DNA of 64,000 nucleotides. Origin: Flavobacterium sp. N1994. Its GTDB lineage: Bacteria > Bacteroidota > Bacteroidia > Flavobacteriales > Flavobacteriaceae. The notes under the pieces were generated by a model. The model did no database searches and had not been told where the DNA came from. It saw only the letters and a program-made list of their open reading frames with translations. The stretch spans positions 1,426,001 through 1,490,000 of the forward strand of contig NZ_CP109999.1 of assembly GCF_025947145.1 (NCBI RefSeq), given 5' to 3'. Positions 4,850-64,000 of this stretch are shown one piece after another. A program made the position numbers and the translations under genes. Position 1 is the stretch's first letter. Each line of letters opens with the position of its first letter.

Positions 4850-4877
4850 ATTCACAATTCACAATTCACAATTCACA
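4850..4877. repeat. Short tandem repeat, 7-bp unit x4
   Basis: Four perfect tandem copies of ATTCACA immediately upstream (on +) of the fabH-like stop codon. Similar ATTCACAATTTACAATTC-type stretches occur at 20005-20040. Confidence 0.8.
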
Positions 4878-4879
4878 AT

Positions 4880-5884
4880 TTACCATTTAATTATAGCGCT
4901 TGCCCAAGTAAATCCACTACCAAAAGCTGCTAAAACAACAGTATCTCCTTTCTTAATTTTTCCTTGTTCCCATGCTTCAGTTAATGCAATCGGAATAGAA
5001 GCTGCTGTAGTGTTACCATATTTTTGAATGTTATTGAAAACCTGATCATCCGTCAATCCGAATTTCTTCTGGATAAACTGTGAAATTCTCAAATTCGCCT
5101 GATGTGGTATCAACATATCAATATCGGAAACTTCCAAATTATTCGCTTTCAAACCTTCATTAATTACTTCGCTAAAACGAACAACAGCATGTTTAAAAAC
5201 AAATTGCCCATTCATATATGGAAAATAACTTTCGTCATCTGGATTGTTTTCTGCCAAAATATCAGTAACCCATCTTCCTCCCATTCCAGGTGCTAAAACC
5301 GCTAATTCTTTAGCATGCTCTCCTTCTGAATGTAAGTGTGTAGAAAGCACTCCACTTCCATCCTCACTTCTTGTCAAGACAACCGCTCCTGCCCCATCTC
5401 CAAAAATAACGGAAACACCACGACCACGAGTAGTCATATCTAATCCCAATGACTGCACTTCAGAAGCTACCACTAAAATGTTTTTATACATCCCCGTTTT
5501 GATAAACTGGTCAGCCACTGACAAAGCATATATAAAGCCCGAGCATTGATTACGAATATCCAAAGCTCCTACTGTTTTGAGCCCCATTTGTTTTTGTAGT
5601 TCAACTCCTGGTCCTGGAAAATAATAATCAGGTGAAATGGTAGCAAAAACAATAAAATCGATATCATCATTTGAAATCCCAGCACGTTCGATAGCAATTG
5701 TTGCCGCTTTTACACCCATAGATGTTGTGGTATCCTGCCCACGAACAATATGTCTTCTTTCTTGAATACCTGTTCTTTCTTGAATCCATTCGTCGTTGGT
5801 ATCCATTATTTTAGATAAGTCATCATTGGTCACAACATTATCTGGAACATAAAATCCTAAGCCTGATATTTTAGATTGGTACAT
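4880..5884 (-). CDS. 3-oxoacyl-ACP synthase III (FabH-like)
   Basis: 334 residues from the ATG at 5884; an upstream in-frame TTG would add 10 residues that do not fit the family. The thiolase fold carries the FabH triad: Cys114 (NQCSGF), His261 (IPHQANLRI) and Asn291 (YGNTTAAS). Family reaction: condensation of an acyl-CoA primer with malonyl-ACP to start fatty-acid synthesis. In Flavobacteria, which make branched-chain fatty acids, branched primers are likely (inference). No fab or plsX genes adjoin it, so it may be a second copy or belong to a secondary lipid pathway such as aryl polyenes or flexirubin. The gene faces the S9 peptidase divergently. Confidence 0.9.
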   Translation of the reverse strand: MYQSKISGLGFYVPDNVVTNDDLSKIMDTNDEWIQERTGIQERRHIVRGQDTTTSMGVKAATIAIERAGISNDDIDFIVFATISPDYYFPGPGVELQKQMGLKTVGALDIRNQCSGFIYALSVADQFIKTGMYKNILVVASEVQSLGLDMTTRGRGVSVIFGDGAGAVVLTRSEDGSGVLSTHLHSEGEHAKELAVLAPGMGGRWVTDILAENNPDDESYFPYMNGQFVFKHAVVRFSEVINEGLKANNLEVSDIDMLIPHQANLRISQFIQKKFGLTDDQVFNNIQKYGNTTAASIPIALTEAWEQGKIKKGDTVVLAAFGSGFTWASAIIKW

Positions 5885-19234: not shown

Positions 19235-19999
19235 ATGGAAATCAAAAAAGACCTAAAACTAGCCGTACTAATCGATGCCGATAACGTTCCTTACGCTAAC
19301 GTAAAAGAAATGTTCGAAGAAATTGCCAAATACGGAACCCCAACGTTCAAACGCATCTATGCCGATTGGACCAAACCTACCGTCTCTGGTTGGAAAAAAG
19401 TCCTGTTAGAAAATGCCATAACACCCATCCAACAATACAGTTATTCCGTCGGGAAAAACGCTAGCGATAGCGCCCTAATCATCGACGCGATGGATATTCT
19501 CTATACCGGAAAAGTAGACGGTTTCTGCATCGTTTCCAGCGATTCCGATTTTACTCGTTTAGCTACTCGCCTTCGGGAAGCCGGAATGAAAGTCATTGGC
19601 ATCGGCGAAAAGAAAACACTAACGCCATTCATCACCGCTTGCGATAAATTCATTTACATCGAAATCCTAAAGAAAAACGATGAGGAGCCTACAGTAGAAA
19701 CCAATAATCCAAAACAATCTAAAAATACTAAAGCCCCTGCCAGCAACCCTATCAGCAAAATCGATCCAAAAATCATCAAACTATTCGCCGATAGTATAGA
19801 CGACATCGAAGATGAAAACGGATGGGCGTTCTTAGGAGAGCTAGGCAACTTAATGCTAAAAAAGAAACCCGACTTCGATTCAAGAAATTACGGTTTCCCA
19901 AAATTACTAGCCTTAATCAAAAGCATCAACCGCTTCGAAATTGACGAACGCGATAGTGGCAAAAACAACATCAAACACATCTACGTCAGAAGAAAATAA
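19235..19999 (+). CDS. NYN-domain (PIN-like) ribonuclease with OST-HTH/LOTUS-like C-terminus
   Basis: 254 residues. Residues ~8-150 are a NYN/LabA-like PIN domain with the acidic residues expected for metal-dependent RNase activity (LIDADNVP, NASDSALIIDAMD and SSDSDFTRLA). A Pro/Asn/Lys-rich linker (~152-178) leads to a ~75-residue winged-helix OST-HTH (LOTUS)-like domain (GWAFLGELGNLMLKKKPDF to FPKLLALIKS). Predicted RNA-binding nuclease; target unknown. Codon use is unusually rich in C-ending codons. It precedes the YkgJ-like gene by 60 bp, which carries the ATTCACAATT short repeat. Confidence 0.85.
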   Translation: MEIKKDLKLAVLIDADNVPYANVKEMFEEIAKYGTPTFKRIYADWTKPTVSGWKKVLLENAITPIQQYSYSVGKNASDSALIIDAMDILYTGKVDGFCIVSSDSDFTRLATRLREAGMKVIGIGEKKTLTPFITACDKFIYIEILKKNDEEPTVETNNPKQSKNTKAPASNPISKIDPKIIKLFADSIDDIEDENGWAFLGELGNLMLKKKPDFDSRNYGFPKLLALIKSINRFEIDERDSGKNNIKHIYVRRK

Positions 20000-20004
20000 A
20001 AATA

Positions 20005-20040
20005 ATTCAAAATTCACAATTTACAATTCACAATTCAAAA
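20005..20040. repeat. Short ATTCACAA-type repeat cluster
   Basis: AATTCAAAATTCACAATTTA then CAATTCACAATTCAAAAT: irregular copies of the same 7-8-bp motif as 4850-4877, between two + strand genes. Confidence 0.6.
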
Positions 20041-20059
20041 TAGCCTACCTTACAAAAAA

Positions 20060-20668
20060 ATGGCTATCGAAACCAAGGTAAAATTAGTAGAACAACTATT
20101 TGACCGACTAGAAAAAGAAATCTCCCAGTTCCAATCCCAAACTGGGTTACATTGCATAGCAGGTTGCGGAAGATGTTGCACTACGCCTCACATTGATGCC
20201 TCTCCTCTAGAGTTCTTCCCTTGGGCTTTCCACCTCTATCTAAACGGTCAAGCCGAAAGAATGTTAGACGAATTAAACGATTCCAACCAATCCCTTTGCC
20301 ACATTTACCGACCCCTATCCATAGTAGACAGCGATAACGGAAGCTGCTCCAACTATAAATACCGAGGATTAATCTGTCGCCTTTTCGGATACGCTGCCAG
20401 CCGAGACCAATTCGGAAAACTACGCCTAGCCACCTGCAAAATCATAAAAGAAAACCAACCCGATAACTACCAAAATACCACCGAAGCCATCAGCAAAGGC
20501 CTCTACATTCCCATCTTCTCCGACTATTACATGCACCTCTCCCAAATCGATTTCAAATTAGCCAAAACTATGCTCCCCGTAAACGAAGCCCTAAAAAGAG
20601 CCATCGAAGAAGTCCTCCACTACTACGCCTACCACCCCTTCCCCACCGACCTCAAAACTCCAGCATAG
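20060..20668 (+). CDS. YkgJ-family Cys-cluster protein
   Basis: 202 residues. The family cluster is present: CIAGCGRCC near residue 32, then C in GSCSNYKYRGLICRLFG and a later Cys in ATCKI. YkgJ proteins have a conserved eight-Cys pattern thought to bind zinc or an iron-sulphur cluster; function is unknown. Cytoplasmic, no signal peptide. Codon use (CTA, CCC, TCC, ATC) is C-rich like its neighbours. It may be co-transcribed with the NYN gene. Confidence 0.85.
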   Translation: MAIETKVKLVEQLFDRLEKEISQFQSQTGLHCIAGCGRCCTTPHIDASPLEFFPWAFHLYLNGQAERMLDELNDSNQSLCHIYRPLSIVDSDNGSCSNYKYRGLICRLFGYAASRDQFGKLRLATCKIIKENQPDNYQNTTEAISKGLYIPIFSDYYMHLSQIDFKLAKTMLPVNEALKRAIEEVLHYYAYHPFPTDLKTPA

Positions 20669-20770: not shown

Positions 20771-21002
20771 TTTGGGGTTATCCCAAACTTCTTTGGGTTA
20801 ATACCAAACCTCCTTGGGGTAATCCAAAACCCCTATGGGTCAATCCAATATCTCCTTGGGTTAATACAATACCCCCATAGGTTAATCCCATGTCCTTTTG
20901 GGTTAATACCAAACCCCCATGGGCTAATCCCATATCCCTTTGAATTAATACCATACCCTGTTAGGTATATACTATATCCCATTGGGTTTATACCAAATGG
21001 CA
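20771..21002. repeat. Array of eleven 21-bp palindromic units
   Basis: Eleven consecutive units, ten of 21 bp and one (the second) of 22 bp. Each begins with an imperfect palindrome centred at unit position 8, for example TTTGGGgttatCCCAAA (unit 1), TTGGgttaataCCAA (unit 7), ATGGGctaatCCCAT (unit 8) and TTGGgtttataCCAA (unit 11). A C-rich linker completes the unit. Terminal bases of the arms switch together (T...A to A...T), keeping pairing; units 4, 5, 9 and 10 are weaker. Odd and even units tend to alternate, a ~42-bp super-period in the middle. Not a CRISPR array: there are no unique spacers. It fills most of the 400 bp between the YkgJ-like gene and the HTH gene. Confidence 0.85.
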
Positions 21003-21069
21003 CAAAATTTGATAACTATTTGACACAGAAGAACAAATAGTAAATTATGTTGAATCTAATACAAACCAT

Positions 21070-21438: not shown

Positions 21439-21470
21439 AACCGCCTCAATGTAATCGAGGCGGTTATATA
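21439..21470 (+). terminator. Terminator-like hairpin after the HTH gene
   Basis: AACCGCCTC / GAGGCGGTT (21439-21447 and 21457-21465), followed by an AT-rich but not pure T tail. Confidence 0.6.
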
Positions 21471-21480
21471 TTTTCTTCAA

Positions 21481-21534
21481 ACTGAGCTTGCGAAGTAGCT
21501 CCATTCGTAATTGATAATTCGTAATTCGTAATTC
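21481..21534 (+). repeat. REP-like repeat (TGAGCTTGCGAAG type), copy 2
   Basis: ACTGAGCTTGCGAAGTAGCT then CCATTCG, followed by ATTCGTAATT repeats. Same composite as 20718-20770. The two copies bracket the array and the HTH gene. Confidence 0.75.
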
Positions 21535-21535
21535 T

Positions 21536-24388
21536 TTATTTACTCAAATACATCTTACGACGCGAATACAACTCATAAAACTGATCATCCTTCAAATCAT
21601 CAATAAACAAAATACTCTCCCCAGTAGATTTCATCTCAGGACCCAGCGCTTTATTTACATTCGGGAACTTACTAAAAGAAAACACCGGTTGCTTAATAGC
21701 ATACCCCTTCAACTGCGGATTAAAAGTAAAATCGGTTACTTTATTCACCCCAAGCATCACTTTAGTAGCATAATTCACATAAGGTTCCCCATAAGCTTTA
21801 GCAATAAAAGGCACCGTTCTCGAAGCTCTAGGATTCGCCTCAATGATATAAACAATATCATCTTTGATAGCAAACTGTATATTGATTAACCCCACCGTTC
21901 TCAAAGCCAAAGCTATCTTCTTCGTATGGTCCTTAATCTGTTGCATCACAAACTCCCCCAAGTTAAAAGGAGGCAAAGTAGCATTACTATCCCCCGAATG
22001 GACACCACAAGGCTCAATATGCTCCATGATGCCAATGATATACACATTTTCTCCATCACATATCGCATCTGCTTCTGCCTCAATAGCTCCATCCAAATAG
22101 TTATCCAATAACAATTTATTCCCTGGTATGTTTTTCAACAAATCAATCACATGCTCCTCCAACTCCTGCTTATTGATGACAATCTTCATCCCTTGTCCAC
22201 CCAAAACATAAGAAGGACGAACCAACAAAGGGAAATCCAAAATATCCGCAAGCGCCGAAGCCTGATCCGCATTCTCTGCTACACCAAACTTAGGAAAAGG
22301 AATCTTCAACTCTGATAACAACTCAGAAAAACGACCTCTATCTTCCGCTAAATCCAAAGCATCAAAAGAAGTTCCTAATATCTTAATCCCATAGCGATCC
22401 AATTTCTCAGCCAACTTCAAAGCCGTCTGTCCTCCCAATTGTACAATCACACCCTCAGGTTGCTCATGTCGAATAATATCATAAATATGTTCCCAAAAAA
22501 CAGGCTCAAAATATAACTTATCCGCAGTATCAAAATCAGTAGAAACCGTCTCGGGATTACAGTTAATCATAATAGTTTCATAGCCACACTCTTTCGCCGC
22601 CAAAACCCCATGAACACAAGAATAATCAAACTCAATCCCCTGCCCAATACGATTCGGCCCCGAACCTAGGACTACTACCTTCTTTTTATTGGTAACCACA
22701 CTTTCATTATGTACATAACGCTCTCCTGTAGCCGTTTCAATCTCAGCCTCAAACGTAGAGTAATAATATGGAGTTAACGCTTTAAACTCGGCCGCACAAG
22801 TATCTACTAGCTTATAAACCCGTTTAATGTTCATCTCATCCCGCAACTTATACACCTGACTTTCCAAACACTGCAACATATGGGCAATCTGTCTATCTCC
22901 ATAGCCTTTTTGTTTGGCTTCCAATAATAACTCTTTCGGTAAAGTATCTATTTTGTATTGTGAAATCTCTTTTTCTAAATGATACAACTCTTCATATTGT
23001 CGCAAAAACCACATATCAATCTTAGTAATCTCATGAATACGAGACAACGGAATCCCCATTGCAATCGCATCATAAATCACAAACACTCTATCCCAACTCG
23101 CAAACGTAAGTTTCTCAATAATTTGTTCATAGTTCTTATACCCTTTCCCATCAGCTCCTAAACCATTTCGCTTAATCTCTAAAGATTGAGTAGCTTTATG
23201 CAACGCTTCTTGAAAAGAACGCCCAATCCCCATAACTTCTCCAACCGATTTCATTTGAAGTCCCAAGGTTCTATCAGAACCCTCAAACTTATCAAAGTTC
23301 CAACGCGGAATCTTCACAATCACATAATCCAAAGTAGGTTCAAACAACGCCGAAGTCGATTTGGTAATCTGATTCTGCAATTCATCCAAGTGATAGCCTA
23401 AAGCCAATTTAGTAGCCACTTTAGCAATAGGATACCCAGTAGCTTTAGAAGCTAATGCAGAAGAACGAGACACACGCGGATTAATCTCAATAGCCACAAT
23501 ATCTTCTCTCTCATCCGGAGAAACCGCAAACTGCACATTACAACCTCCAGCAAAGTTCCCAATAGAACGCATCATCAAAATAGCATAATCCCGCATCCTC
23601 TGAAAAGTAGTATCCGACAACGTCATGGCGGGTGCCACCGTAATAGAATCTCCGGTATGAATTCCCATTGGATCCATATTCTCAATAGAACAAATAATCA
23701 CAACATTGTCATTCTGATCCCGAAGCAATTCTAATTCGTATTCCTTCCAACCTAACAAAGCCTTATCAATCAAAACCTCGTGAATTGGAGAAGCTTCTAA
23801 TCCTCTTGTAAGTAAATCATCAAAGTCTTCTTTTTTATGTACAAAAGCCGCTCCAGTTCCTCCCAAAGTAAACGAAGGCCGAATTACTAAAGGAAAACCA
23901 AACTCTTGAGCAATCTCTTTCCCTTTTAAAAAGGAAGTAGCTGTTTTAGCAGGAGCAGTAGGTACATCAATTCTTTGCAACAATTGTTTAAACTGCTCTC
24001 TGTCTTCTGTAATATTGATAGCATTAATATCAACCCCTATCAAACGCACATTAAAATCTTTCCAAATGCCTTTTTCATCTGCTTCCAAACAAAGATTCAA
24101 AGCCGTCTGTCCTCCCATCGTAGGCAACACAGCATCAATTTGAGGATGGTTTTTAAGAATTTGAATAATCGATTTAGTGGTTAAAGGCAATAAATAAACA
24201 TGATCCGCCATACTCGGGTCGGTCATAATAGTCGCTGGATTTGAATTAATCAAGATGACTTCAATCCCTTCTTCCCGTAAGGAACGTGCTGATTGTGACC
24301 CAGCATAATCAAATTCGCAAGCCTGTCCAATAACAATAGGACCAGAACCTATAATTAAAACCGATTTAATGGAATTGTCTTTTGGCAT
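21536..24388 (-). CDS. carB: Carbamoyl-phosphate synthase large subunit, lacking the MGS allosteric domain
   Basis: 950 residues. Two tandem ATP-grasp synthetase halves are complete: GSGPIVIGQACEFDYAGSQ, IRPSFTLGGTGAAF and EINPRVSRSSALASKATGYP in the first; GSGPNRIGQGIEFDYSCVH, VRPSYVLGGQGMKIV and EANPRASRTVPF in the second. An oligomerisation region lies between them. Compared with the ~1,070-residue enterobacterial enzyme, the C-terminal methylglyoxal-synthase-like domain is absent and the protein ends at RRKMYLSK. It makes carbamoyl phosphate from bicarbonate, ammonia and ATP for arginine and pyrimidines. carA is not adjacent. Start ATG 24388, consensus N-terminus. Confidence 0.96.
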   Translation of the reverse strand: MPKDNSIKSVLIIGSGPIVIGQACEFDYAGSQSARSLREEGIEVILINSNPATIMTDPSMADHVYLLPLTTKSIIQILKNHPQIDAVLPTMGGQTALNLCLEADEKGIWKDFNVRLIGVDINAINITEDREQFKQLLQRIDVPTAPAKTATSFLKGKEIAQEFGFPLVIRPSFTLGGTGAAFVHKKEDFDDLLTRGLEASPIHEVLIDKALLGWKEYELELLRDQNDNVVIICSIENMDPMGIHTGDSITVAPAMTLSDTTFQRMRDYAILMMRSIGNFAGGCNVQFAVSPDEREDIVAIEINPRVSRSSALASKATGYPIAKVATKLALGYHLDELQNQITKSTSALFEPTLDYVIVKIPRWNFDKFEGSDRTLGLQMKSVGEVMGIGRSFQEALHKATQSLEIKRNGLGADGKGYKNYEQIIEKLTFASWDRVFVIYDAIAMGIPLSRIHEITKIDMWFLRQYEELYHLEKEISQYKIDTLPKELLLEAKQKGYGDRQIAHMLQCLESQVYKLRDEMNIKRVYKLVDTCAAEFKALTPYYYSTFEAEIETATGERYVHNESVVTNKKKVVVLGSGPNRIGQGIEFDYSCVHGVLAAKECGYETIMINCNPETVSTDFDTADKLYFEPVFWEHIYDIIRHEQPEGVIVQLGGQTALKLAEKLDRYGIKILGTSFDALDLAEDRGRFSELLSELKIPFPKFGVAENADQASALADILDFPLLVRPSYVLGGQGMKIVINKQELEEHVIDLLKNIPGNKLLLDNYLDGAIEAEADAICDGENVYIIGIMEHIEPCGVHSGDSNATLPPFNLGEFVMQQIKDHTKKIALALRTVGLINIQFAIKDDIVYIIEANPRASRTVPFIAKAYGEPYVNYATKVMLGVNKVTDFTFNPQLKGYAIKQPVFSFSKFPNVNKALGPEMKSTGESILFIDDLKDDQFYELYSRRKMYLSK

Positions 24389-60086: not shown

Positions 60087-63000
60087 ATGAAAAAATTATT
60101 ACTTAAATCAGAAAAGTACAGCCTATTAATCCTACTATTAATAGTTACCTCTATAAGTAGAGGTCAAAGTACACAAACGTATTCAACAAACGGTACATTC
60201 ACAGTCCCTGCAGGAGTTACAACCATTCAGGTTGAAGCCTATGGTGGTGGTGGTGGTGGTGGTTTCGGCCGTAGCGGTGGTAGTGGTGGTAGTACAAATG
60301 GCGGAGGCGGAGGCGGAGGCGGAGCTTATACTTTAATTAACTCTGTTACTGTGGTGCCAGGAACATCATATTCATTAACTATTGGAAATGGTGGAAGCGG
60401 AACAACAGGTGGTAATGGTGGTAATGGTACAACAACTACTGCAACCTTTGGAAGTACAACAATTAACGCTACTGGTGGTGCTGGTGGAAAAAGCTATTCA
60501 AATGGAGGAAATGGAGGAAATGGAGGAAGCGGAACAAGAAATGGTGGAACTGGAGGTTCAGGAACTACATCAGGATCCGGTGGTGGTGGTGGTTGCGGTG
60601 GTACAACAGCTAATGGCGGTAGTGGATCTGTTCCAAATGCTGGTGTTGCTGGTGGCGGACCAATTGCTGGTGCTGGTGGTGCTGGTACAACTTCAGGAAC
60701 TTCAGTAGGAACTTCAGGTAGTAACTACGGAGGCGGAGGCGGAGGCGGAACTAAAAATTCAAATGGAGGAAATGGTGCAGGTGGATATATGATCATCACT
60801 TATACTTGTCCAACCTACGCTTTAACATCAACAACTTCACCGAATATGTGTGGTGCTGCAGTATCTACAGTAACTCTAAATGGATCTGCTACTTCTTTAC
60901 CAGTAGGTACTTATACGGTGACTTATAACCTTTCAGGATCAACTGTTGCTTCAGGAAGTACAGCAGCAATGACAGTATCAACTGCTGGAACAGGAACTTT
61001 TACAACTTCATCTATAAATTTAGGAACAACAACAATTACAGTTACTAATTTAACGTCTTCATACTGCTCAAGTGCAATTTCAAGTAACAACACAGTATCT
61101 GTAGGTGTTTATTCAACTCCAACAGCTGTGGCAGGTTCTGCAATGAACACTTGTTCTACTTCAGGAGCAGTTAATATTACTGGAGGTTCTAGTGCCACTA
61201 ATCAAACTTTAGTAACTTGGACATCAAATGGAACTGGAACTATTACTAATCCAAATTCCTTAACAACTTGTACTTATACTCCTAGTGCGGCAGAAAATAC
61301 TGCTGGAAGTACTATTACACTAACATTAACAGCTTCAAATCCTGCTTGTTCAAATGCAACTTCAACGAAAACCCTAACCATAACTAAAGCATCAACAGCT
61401 GTTGCTGCTGGCCCTAATACAGTATGTCAATCGGCTACTCCATCTGCTATCACCTTAACTGGTGCTAGTGTTGGTGGTGGTGCAACTACTGGTGCTTGGT
61501 CTATTACCTCTGGTGGAGGAACTTTAAGCTCTACAGCTCAAACTGCGTCACCAGCTACTGTAACCTACACTCCAGCAGCCAATTTCTCTGGTACGGTTAC
61601 TCTTACTCTCACTTCTAATTTCGGAACTGGATGTACCGCTGCTACAGATGCAAGAACTATAACTGTTACTCCTATTGCAACGGCTGTTGCTGGTGGGCCA
61701 GATAATACATGCCAATCAGCTACTCCATCAGCTATTACCTTAACTGGTGCTAGTGTTGGTGGTGGTGCAACTACTGGAGCTTGGTCTATTACCTCTGGTG
61801 GAGGAACTTTAAGCTCTACGTCTCAAACTGCTTCTCCTGCTACCGTAACTTATACTCCAGCTGCTAATTTCTCTGGAACGGTTACTCTTACCCTTACTTC
61901 AAACGTTGGAACTGGATGTAGTACTCCTGCAACAGTTACTAGAACTATAACAGTTACGCCTATTGCAACAGCTGTTGCGGGTGGGCCAGATAATATATGT
62001 CAATCAGCTACTCCAACTGCTATTACCTTAACTGGTGCTAGTGTTGGTGGTGGTGCCACTACTGGAGCGTGGTCTATTACCTCTGGTGGAGGAACTTTAA
62101 GCTCTACAGCCCAAACTGCTTCTCCTGCTACTGTAACTTATACTCCAGCAGCTAATTTCTCTGGAACGGTTACTCTTACGCTTACTTCTAATTTCGGAAC
62201 TGGATGTAGTACTCCTGCAACTGTTACTAGAACCATTAATGTAGGTTTGGCTTCAACAGCTAATGCAGGTGGGCCTAATACAGTATGTCAATCAGCTACT
62301 CCAGCTGCTATTACCCTAACTGGTGCTAGTGTTGGTGGGGCCGCAACTACTGGGGCTTGGTCTATTACCTCTGGTGGAGGAACTTTAAGCTCTACGGCTC
62401 AAACTGCTTCTCCCGCTACTGTAACTTATACTCCCGCTGCTAATTTCTCTGGTACGGTTACTCTTACTCTTACCTCTAATTTCGGAACTGGATGTACTGC
62501 TGCTACAGCTACAAGAACTATAACTGTTACTCCTATTGCAACAGCTGTTGCTGGTGGGCCTGATAATATATGTCAATCAGCTACTCCAGCTGCTATTACC
62601 TTAACTGGTGCTAGTGTTGGTGGTGGTGCCACTACTGGAGCTTGGTCTATTACTTCTGGTGGAGGAACTTTAAGCTCTACGGCTCAAACTGCTTCTCCTG
62701 CTTCTGTAACTTATACTCCCGCTGCTAATTTCTCTGGAACTGTTACTCTTACGCTTACTTCTAATGTTGGAACGGGATGTAGTACTCCTGCAACAGTTAC
62801 TAGAACCATTAATGTAGGTTTGGCTTCAACTGCTAACGCAGGTGGGCCTGATACTGTATGTCAATCGGCTACCCCATTACCTATTGTCCTGACTGGAGCT
62901 AATGTTGGTGGGGCTGCAACTACTGGAGCTTGGTCAATTACCTCTGGAGGAGGAACTTTAAGCTCTACAGCTCAAACACTTTTACCAGCACTTGTAACTT

Positions 63001-64000
63001 ATACTCCAGCAGCTAATTTCTCTGGAACGGTTACTCTTACCCTTACTTCTAATTTCGGAACTGGATGTACCGCTGCTACAGCTACAAGAACTATAACTGT
63101 TACTCCTATTGCAACAGCTGTTGCTGGTGGCCCTAATACAGTATGTCAATCGGCTACTCCAGCTGCTATTACTTTAACTGGTGCTAGTGTTGGTGGTGGT
63201 GCCACTACTGGGGCTTGGTCTATTACCTCTGGTGGAGGAACTTTAAGCTCTACCGCTCAAATTGCTTCTCCTGCTACTGTAACTTATACTCCAGCCGCTA
63301 ATTTCACAGGAACTGTTACTCTTACCCTTACTTCTAATGTTGGAACGGGATGTAGTACTCCTGCAACTGTTACTAGAACTATCAATGTAACTTCGGCTTC
63401 AACTGCTAATGCAGGTGGACCTAATACAGTGTGTCAATCAGCTACTCCAACTGCTATTACCTTAACTGGTGCTAGTGTTGGTGGTGGTGCCACTACTGGA
63501 GCTTGGTCTATTACCTCTGGCGGAGGAACTTTAAGCTCTACAGCTCAAACTGCTTCTCCTGCTTCTGTAACTTATACTCCAGCAGCTAATTTCTCTGGAA
63601 CGGTTACTCTTACTCTTACTTCAAATTTTGGAACTTCATGTACCGCTGCTACAGCTACAAGAACTATAACTGTTACTCCTATAGCAACTGCTGTTGCTGG
63701 TGGTCCTAATACAGTATGTCAATCGGCTACTCCAGCTGCTATTACTTTAACTGGCGCTAGTATTGGTGGTGGTGCCACTACTGGAGCTTGGTCTATTACC
63801 TCTGGTGGAGGAACTTTAAGCTCTACGGCTCAAACTGCTTCTCCTGCTTCTGTAACTTATACTCCAGCAGCTAATTTCTCTGGAACAGCTACTCTTACTC
63901 TTACTTCTAATGTTGGAACGGGATGTAGTACTCCTGCAACTGTTACTAGAACTATCAATGTAACTTTGGCTTCAACAGCTAATGCAGGTGGCCCTAATAC
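60087..64000 (+). CDS. Giant repetitive secreted adhesin-like protein (3' end beyond the window)
   Basis: Open from ATG 60087 to the edge (about 1,304 codons), no stop. Signal peptide at ~1-27 (LLILLLIVTSISRGQ), then a glycine-rich domain (~28-240, FTVPAGVTTIQVEAYGG...), which fits the Gly_rich_2 type, and two Ig-like/PKD-like segments with paired Cys. From ~base 61381, near-identical 95/96-residue units repeat: CQSATPSAITLTGASVGG, AWSITSGGGTLSSTAQTAS, TYTPAANFSGTVTLTLTS. The C-terminus, likely a T9SS sorting domain, is not visible. Inference: SprB-like surface adhesin used in gliding or attachment. Confidence 0.9.
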   Translation, partial: MKKLLLKSEKYSLLILLLIVTSISRGQSTQTYSTNGTFTVPAGVTTIQVEAYGGGGGGGFGRSGGSGGSTNGGGGGGGGAYTLINSVTVVPGTSYSLTIGNGGSGTTGGNGGNGTTTTATFGSTTINATGGAGGKSYSNGGNGGNGGSGTRNGGTGGSGTTSGSGGGGGCGGTTANGGSGSVPNAGVAGGGPIAGAGGAGTTSGTSVGTSGSNYGGGGGGGTKNSNGGNGAGGYMIITYTCPTYALTSTTSPNMCGAAVSTVTLNGSATSLPVGTYTVTYNLSGSTVASGSTAAMTVSTAGTGTFTTSSINLGTTTITVTNLTSSYCSSAISSNNTVSVGVYSTPTAVAGSAMNTCSTSGAVNITGGSSATNQTLVTWTSNGTGTITNPNSLTTCTYTPSAAENTAGSTITLTLTASNPACSNATSTKTLTITKASTAVAAGPNTVCQSATPSAITLTGASVGGGATTGAWSITSGGGTLSSTAQTASPATVTYTPAANFSGTVTLTLTSNFGTGCTAATDARTITVTPIATAVAGGPDNTCQSATPSAITLTGASVGGGATTGAWSITSGGGTLSSTSQTASPATVTYTPAANFSGTVTLTLTSNVGTGCSTPATVTRTITVTPIATAVAGGPDNICQSATPTAITLTGASVGGGATTGAWSITSGGGTLSSTAQTASPATVTYTPAANFSGTVTLTLTSNFGTGCSTPATVTRTINVGLASTANAGGPNTVCQSATPAAITLTGASVGGAATTGAWSITSGGGTLSSTAQTASPATVTYTPAANFSGTVTLTLTSNFGTGCTAATATRTITVTPIATAVAGGPDNICQSATPAAITLTGASVGGGATTGAWSITSGGGTLSSTAQTASPASVTYTPAANFSGTVTLTLTSNVGTGCSTPATVTRTINVGLASTANAGGPDTVCQSATPLPIVLTGANVGGAATTGAWSITSGGGTLSSTAQTLLPALVTYTPAANFSGTVTLTLTSNFGTGCTAATATRTITVTPIATAVAGGPNTVCQSATPAAITLTGASVGGGATTGAWSITSGGGTLSSTAQIASPATVTYTPAANFTGTVTLTLTSNVGTGCSTPATVTRTINVTSASTANAGGPNTVCQSATPTAITLTGASVGGGATTGAWSITSGGGTLSSTAQTASPASVTYTPAANFSGTVTLTLTSNFGTSCTAATATRTITVTPIATAVAGGPNTVCQSATPAAITLTGASIGGGATTGAWSITSGGGTLSSTAQTASPASVTYTPAANFSGTATLTLTSNVGTGCSTPATVTRTINVTLASTANAGGPN
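61425..64000 (+). repeat. Tandem coding repeat, 285/288-bp units, at least nine copies
   Basis: The Cys codon of each CQSA start lies at 61425, 61710, 61998, 62286, 62571, 62859, 63144, 63432 and 63717, spacing 285, 288, 288, 285, 288, 285, 288 and 285. Units ending CTAATATRTITVTPIATAVA are 285 bp; those ending CSTPATVTRTINV are 288 bp. Synonymous changes are few, so units are recent or homogenised. Confidence 0.9.

Follow-up and report, generated by a model that had tools for sequence, protein, structure and literature searches.

Tandem arrays of 21- and 22-bp units upstream of an XRE-type HTH gene family in Flavobacterium: candidate multi-site operators

Phage and genomic-island XRE repressors, and SinR, act through few operators. 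Among R-M controller proteins, C.Csp231I is described, in the part of the study cited here, as an autoregulator whose two dimers need a spacer of the correct length, not of a given sequence (PMC4321490). StbA of plasmid R388 is a small DNA-binding protein whose targets are tandem repeats located around the promoter of its gene; as described in the cited part of that work, the repeats are 9 bp long, spaced by 2 and carried on the plasmid, where they function in its segregation and transfer (PMC3098194). Intergenic tandem repeats are also on record for the genus itself, as VNTRs of Flavobacterium psychrophilum, and the 12 units listed in the cited portion of that study are 4–9 bp in length, none of them 21 or 22 (PMC4501049). 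Here, a tandem array was characterized in a window of 64,000 nucleotides from Flavobacterium sp. N1994, together with the gene that follows it and the relatives of that gene. The original prediction for this DNA, made from its letters, knew no described element of this form, and our survey of open-licence papers agrees: nothing relevant and no description of such arrays was found there.

The array consists of 11 units of exactly 21 bp (Table 1). The original prediction had counted ten units of 21 bp and one of 22 bp; the tandem period was correct, but there is no 22-bp unit. Autocorrelation at period 21, calculated in a 210-bp window, is 0.686, compared with 0.358 ± 0.019 in 1,000 first-order Markov shuffles (maximum 0.424). 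Adjacent units are 68% identical and units at a two-unit distance are 74% identical, which is a 42-bp alternation. The units form imperfect palindromes on one common axis, at a fixed place in the unit as had been described, and both of the unit forms named beforehand, TTGG..CCAA and ATGG..CCAT, are present. Column permutations reach the palindromy of the array in 4/200 and 6/100 cases in two versions of the test. The palindrome excess of this array by itself is modest, and its orthologues and the protein family supply the strength. A search of the N1994 genome returned the array itself as the sole match at E ≤ 0.001 and no second copy, and the array of an HTH paralogue in the same genome likewise gave one match. 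REP/BIME dispersed palindromes were ruled out by this single copy. A CRISPR array was ruled out because the units abut at the 21-bp period with no unique spacers between them, as the first reading had also held.

Table 1. Coordinates of features at the array locus, in window positions.
Feature	Position	Strand	Description
Gene with CxxCxxCC-like domain	20060–20668		5′ of array; domain match 22.8 bits, just under cut-off 23
Array	20771–21001	+	Eleven 21-bp units; axis at unit position 9, positions 1–6 against 12–17
Unit 1	20771–20791	+	Most perfect palindrome, TTTGGG..CCCAAA
Unit 11	20981–21001	+	Final unit ahead of promoter region
Gap, array to HTH start codon	21002–21069	+	Contains TATTTG at 21017–21022
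XRE/Cro-type HTH gene, 121 aa	21070–21435	+	HTH helices within residues 14–74; C-terminal helix 88–120
Terminator-like hairpin	21441–21463	+	3′ of HTH gene; CCGCCTC..GAGGCGG, then T-rich; read from sequence
carB-like gene	21536–24388	opposite	Beyond HTH gene; named from sequence reading

The small HTH gene that had been reported downstream of the array was confirmed, and 68 bp separate its start from the array end. Its 121-aa product matches PF01381 (HTH_3) with 28.8 bits (cut-off 23, E 1.3e-6). An AlphaFold model built with 76 homologues has a pLDDT of 82.7 and contains helices at residues 14–24, 29–36, 40–48, 54–64, 68–74 and 78–81, followed by the long C-terminal helix, which is probably a dimerising coiled coil. 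Foldseek searches with the model returned mostly XRE-domain proteins. The first was C.Esp1396I and the best E value was 5e-3; the 50 matches listed include SinR and Stl, and none reaches E 0.001. The domain and fold tests agree, and the protein is, as predicted from its sequence and model, an XRE/Cro-type HTH regulator. Two genes upstream of the array, at 19235–19999 of the window, an NYN domain is fused to an OST-HTH/LOTUS domain. Other tandem repeats in the window include 7-bp repeats of the ATTCACA and ATTCGTA types at 4850–4880, 20004–20041 and 21503–21534, and a long repeat of period 288 with 8.9 copies at 61393–63955.

Family members were collected with a profile made from an alignment of 15 homologues, which was searched against two overlapping genome samples: among 345 from the phylum, 20 had a match at 1e-5, and among 398 from the genus, 50 had one. 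Removal of duplicates left 97 members that score clearly above generic HTH proteins. One gene with an in-frame TAA (L173) and two fragments (L340 and L346) were dropped before family counts were made. An array was called where the windowed autocorrelation, calculated over the upstream 500 bp with 29 periods tested, reached 0.55 or more. Array counts rest on the 93 members with at least 380 bp upstream; the remaining four had less. The cut-off is passed by 72 of the 93 members. Their arrays have period 21 in 34 cases and 22 in 35, and the three remaining have periods 14, 15 and 38. Leaving out the window itself, period-21 or -22 arrays are found upstream of 68/92 genes. Only these two periods recur among called arrays, the others occurring once each, in line with the two-turn helical phasing proposed at the outset. 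Clustering at 60% protein identity gives 40 clusters. Called arrays are found in 29 of them: 18 have only period 21, 9 have only period 22, and 2 have both. The 24 members without a called array include 13 that still score best at 21 or 22 and 11 that do not. Measured with conservative ends, called arrays have 5–19 units (median 9), and the median array end is 53 bp before the start codon. Values from longer spans (median 12 units, gap 25 bp, promoter box 17 bp inside the array, no open frame in 61/69) were replaced by those from conservative ends because the spans overshoot into the flanks. Between most members the letters of the arrays are largely different, and the period is 21 or 22.

Controls were scored in the same way. 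Arrays at any period are found downstream of 5/93 family genes and in 2.2% of 592 random 500-bp background windows, compared with 74% upstream of family genes. Weak generic HTH rows gave 2/33 arrays, with periods 14 and 32 and none at 21 or 22. Other PF01381 XRE genes of five genomes gave 1/27 (29 loci listed, 27 scored). The expected enrichment of arrays near this HTH family is therefore borne out, at 69/93 members versus 1/27 other XRE genes. The one positive XRE control is a short generic XRE gene in genome G030 with a 21-bp array (L267:1130–1300) that has CGCCA..TGGCG arms in several units; by itself the palindromy of this array is not significant (64/200 permutations as high).

The sigma-A −7 box of Flavobacterium is given as TAnnTTTG in the cited portion of its description (PMC9723704). 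Of the 69 called members, 29 have this box within the 110 bp that precede the start codon, compared with 4.8 ± 2.1 in mononucleotide shuffles. Its median place is 20 bp past the array end; 22 of the 29 boxes lie past the end, and 28 lie in the last 25 bp of the array or past it. Because the box is enriched just 3′ of the arrays, the arrays are placed directly 5′ of the promoter of the gene. The gap in the window lacks the full TAnnTTTG and contains a weaker −7-box-like hexamer (Table 1), which is also found in the corresponding gap of Flavobacterium phycosphaerae.

Searching the 398 genus genomes with the 121-aa protein gave matches at 1e-15 in seven genomes. Close relatives are encoded by F. 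silvisoli (G105, 73% identity), F. phycosphaerae (G156, 69%) and a third genome, G088 (57%); no further orthologue was found in 120 relatives of G156. All three orthologues adjoin a carB-like gene (in G088 read from sequence), and a 21-bp array lies immediately 5′ of each. Array arms are TTGGG..CCCAA in the window and F. phycosphaerae, TTAG..CTAA in F. silvisoli and ATTAG..CTAAT in G088. The G088 orthologue is the gene with an in-frame TAA, yet the period of its array is regular at 21 bp. In F. silvisoli, 42-bp direct repeats of the CACCCTGAGCCTGTCGAAGGGC type were observed between the HTH and carB-like genes (L171:1900–2400).

The four orthologous arrays were combined in a gap-free alignment of 40 units, which leaves out the last F. 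silvisoli unit and two out-of-register G088 units. Across column pairs 1–17 to 6–12, 68.4% of cells are paired, compared with 64.3 ± 1.6 in shuffles (8/500 as high), pair counts that duplication-related units can inflate. Pairing falls to 18–54% when partners are slid by 1–3 columns. Cells changed on both sides number 18, against 10.2 in shuffles (3/500 as high); both-side-changed pairs (331/500) and pair types (490/500) are not above shuffles. At column pair 4–14, the 38 distinct units of the four arrays have A-T in 17 cases, G-C in 8 and no pairing in 13.

Palindromy across the family was tested with centre, gap and 5-bp arms left free and with column permutation as the null. This test and the covariation test below use longer spans that overshoot into flanks, so that the 11 units of the window are counted as 14. 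The 82 upstream family arrays with autocorrelation ≥0.5 have a mean z of +0.99, with 19/82 at ≤5/100 (4.5 expected) and 63/82 not significantly palindromic singly. For 13 other 21/22-bp arrays the mean z is −0.03, with 2/13 at ≤5/100. An earlier version of the test (mean z 1.19, 14/82 at ≤2/200) was replaced by this gapped-arm test. Covariation within XRE arrays was calculated with the axis taken from column composition alone: 62.0% of cells are paired versus 60.2% with partners shuffled (z 4.5), and the effect is positive in 48/69 family arrays. A previous value of z 16.5 was discarded because its axis had been picked on that same statistic. Outside the family arrays, covariation has z 0.07 for the 13 other arrays and z −1.24 for six arrays of a 235-aa protein family described below, one array (L364, identical to L451) being counted in both sets. 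The covariation effect is small, yet it is limited to arrays whose neighbouring protein would be expected to act as a dimer. Arm changes in related arrays keep their pairing above chance both across the four species and within family arrays, as the original prediction had implied.

Correspondence between protein and array letters was compared across 64 members. Recognition-helix identity does not improve the prediction of array similarity (partial r −0.04, 374/500 permutations as high); the corresponding values are 0.15 for helix 5 and 0.20 for the coil, figures that come without a permutation test. This comparison is crude because base composition dominates the 5-mer cosine at low identity. 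Early in the recognition helix, H (in HQST) is found in the two species with TTGG arms and K in the two with TTAG arms; the match may be one event and is only a lead.

Based on these data, the array is read as a cooperative, probably autoregulatory multi-site operator of the adjacent XRE-type protein, an assignment that we consider reasonably likely. A protein dimer with an HTH head and a coiled-coil tail would sit on each 21-bp palindrome, one dimer per unit. With sites spaced at two helical turns, a row of about eleven dimers would form on one face of the DNA, where their tails could provide cooperativity. Autoregulation is proposed from the place of the array, directly 5′ of the promoter of the HTH gene itself; occupancy of the array would then set the level of the protein, with either sign. 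A filament across approximately 230 bp would act as a steep switch, and a one-face row of dimers would select for period 21 or 22 while the sequence stays free. In other members the protein and its site have drifted to other letters, and the two behave like a self-contained pair that keeps changing its code. The original prediction had suggested sites bound by the downstream HTH protein. Family enrichment and arm pairing support this part; arrays that lack the gene, a second protein family and the lack of correspondence between recognition-helix identity and array similarity speak against an account by the HTH protein only.

Thirteen further arrays of period 21, 22 or 42 were found, six in positions 1–400000 of the N1994 genome (G000:C1; L353–L372) and seven in positions 400001–800000 of F. 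phycosphaerae (G156:C1; L373–L392). They have mostly different units, are mostly not palindromic and mostly lie between ordinary genes. Scans of 200 kb each identified two arrays of period 42 in G010 and none in G135, G053 or G047, and none was found in 50 kb of E. coli. The unit CATTTAGCTATGGGG.. recurs at three distant places of the N1994 genome (G000:C1:281141, 394990 and 2887472). One orphan array of F. phycosphaerae (L163:4009–4197) has the letters and arms of the HTH-linked array of that genome. It is flanked by cystathionine-synthase-like and DinB-like genes (named by sequence reading), has no family member within 2.5 kb on either side and is not significantly palindromic by itself (28/200 permutations as high). 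This orphan might serve as a distant target or be a relic. Left out of all counts were 30 loci from a pattern search of genome contigs, which had one match each and a selection biased to period 21. A loose pattern matched at least 120 rows in viral contigs, and nothing from these was used.

Two of the array places in the N1994 genome, one of them near G000:C1 2887500, precede genes of a family of 235-aa helical proteins with no Pfam match. A search of 199 genus genomes gave 14 rows for this family, merged to 12 genes; its loci include L440, L441, L442, L444 and L446–L451. An array lies within 600 bp 5′ of ten of the 12 genes, and its period is 21 or 22 in nine cases and 20 in one; without the two seed genes, the count is 8/10. 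Two-turn arrays are therefore associated with two or more families of unrelated proteins. Together with the 21-bp arrays that lack an HTH gene, this family indicates that part of the cause of the arrays is not the HTH protein.

Tentatively, and with less confidence than for the operator, Flavobacteria might hold a general class of chromosomal solitary protein–iteron pairs. Unrelated small proteins would each stand behind their own array of about ten two-turn sites, with the sequence rewritten, the phasing fixed and a one-sided filament formed, and orphan arrays would be further targets or relics. The class would include XRE-coiled-coil proteins with palindromic iterons and 235-aa helical proteins with asymmetric iterons. 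If this is true, small regulators form a natural library in these genomes, each with a many-site target readable from the genome, and hence pairs of proteins and DNA specificities. Two questions would become testable: why two-turn spacing persists despite sequence turnover, and what scaling cooperativity follows over about ten phased operators. A second unrelated family with like arrays points to a rule of genome organization in Flavobacterium, for which the open-licence literature likewise yielded no description.

The strongest competing explanation is a clade-specific minisatellite, in which a process of the lineage makes or keeps two-turn intergenic repeats and the HTH protein tolerates its array or uses it secondarily. 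The density of arrays beside mostly ordinary neighbours (6 per 400 kb in N1994 and 7 per 400 kb in F. phycosphaerae), the one unit type at three places and the letters shared between the orphan and HTH-linked arrays of F. phycosphaerae are all consistent with it. We nevertheless consider it unlikely, given how rarely background windows contain arrays in comparison with the regions upstream of family genes. In addition, G135 encodes three family members though no such array was detected in 200 kb elsewhere in that genome, G053 and G047 gave the same result, and palindromy and compensatory change are seen set-wise in XRE arrays only. A novel type of selfish or structural repeat, named in the original prediction as the alternative to an operator array, may also be at work; arrays without HTH genes, one of them with the letters of an HTH-linked array, and the unrelated family are compatible with it.

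The array could also be a centromere-like or nucleoid-organising site, which the HTH protein coats to anchor, pair or partition DNA, with transcription control secondary. In the cited part of its description, the StbA–stbDR system has the same layout, a small DNA-binding protein gene with an upstream array and no constant third gene (PMC3098194), and the presence of several family rows in a single genome (7 in G117 and 6 in both G255 and G418) recalls incompatibility groups. The window array differs from the stbDRs in being palindromic, in its 21-bp period and in its chromosomal location, on a single 3.35-Mb contig. No match was found for two family proteins in 72,556 plasmid records or for one family protein in 50,697 phage records, and no motor-ATPase/NTPase gene is a common neighbour of the 97 family loci. 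Compared with plasmid partition and stabilisation systems, the upstream repeat array is shared, and plasmid location and a motor NTPase partner are absent. The promoter box just 3′ of the arrays points to transcription. A centromere-like role is accordingly judged improbable.

It is highly improbable that the array is a coding repeat for a heptapeptide or an RNA, that is, a transcribed string of hairpins. The original statement that no protein-coding frame runs through the array was incorrect: a forward-strand frame starting at 20771 crosses every unit without a stop and closes with a TAG at 21038–21040, with no ATG, GTG or TTG inside the array or ahead of it. The three orthologous arrays are likewise open in this register, which in F. 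phycosphaerae continues into the HTH frame to give a 245-aa open frame. Openness in all four arrays raises the odds of this explanation slightly, and some open frame is present in 14/69 called arrays. The open register is read as a by-product because the arms (TTnG..CnAA) exclude stops from four of the seven codons, the heptapeptides (FGLIPNP, FGRIQYP, IRVIINF, IRNKLIx) are not conserved, and the same-lettered orphan array of F. phycosphaerae has a stop. A coding repeat was rejected on these grounds, together with the missing start codon in the window and the absence of any open frame in 55/69 called arrays. Half of called arrays have period 22, and with both 21 and 22 as periods, neither a coding repeat nor an RNA hairpin string is expected. 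Units could fold into hairpins; the RNA fold of the window array does not exceed shuffles in stability (z −0.63, 48/200 fold as well), and the hairpin string was rejected. Rfam gave no match on the array and one match outside it at E 0.13, under its gathering score.

The sole neighbour common to more than five of the 97 family loci is a 165-aa protein that is all-helical in its model (pLDDT 78.3). This companion is encoded 5′ of the array in 37/87 assessable loci (35/97 by a cruder count), for example L007, L206 and L236–L241, and it accompanies 20/29 period-22 loci versus 6/34 period-21 loci. It has 346 relatives in protein databases, and those named by organism among the 120 matches listed are Flavobacterium or Flavobacteriales. 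No match of weight was found in Pfam, NCBIfam or PHROGs, the best match in a defence library had E 0.0064 (to a 611-position model), and the model had no structural match in the PDB. Profile comparison, with shallow alignments, detected no relationship between this companion and the 235-aa family. That another gene such as this companion, regulated by the HTH protein, is the main client of the array is the least probable of the explanations considered: called arrays do lie 3′ of the companion and ahead of the HTH gene for 27/38 companions (and 5′ of it for 0/37), but the companion is absent from the window, where its profile has no match, and from 50/87 loci, in which the arrays remain.

The operator assignment places the locus closest to the R-M controller proteins, with which it shares, by sequence, the XRE fold and palindromic sites 5′ of the protein's own gene. 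The controllers C.Esp1396I and C.Csp231I have two sites (OL and OR), compared with 11 in the window and 5–19 in called arrays, and the fixed two-turn period distinguishes the arrays described here. Controller genes adjoin restriction and methyltransferase genes; the array and HTH gene in the window are flanked by the CxxCxxCC-like and carB-like genes, and no restriction or methyltransferase genes are shared neighbours among the 97 family loci. SinR and the phage and island XRE repressors share the fold, but the 97 loci have no conserved neighbourhood of phage or island genes. The system in the window would work most like the R-M controller proteins, but it departs from them in site number and neighbouring genes. 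The pairing of an XRE protein with a phased repeat array, which is palindromic in the window, is real and conserved across the family, and it is read as a variant of autoregulated XRE operator systems.
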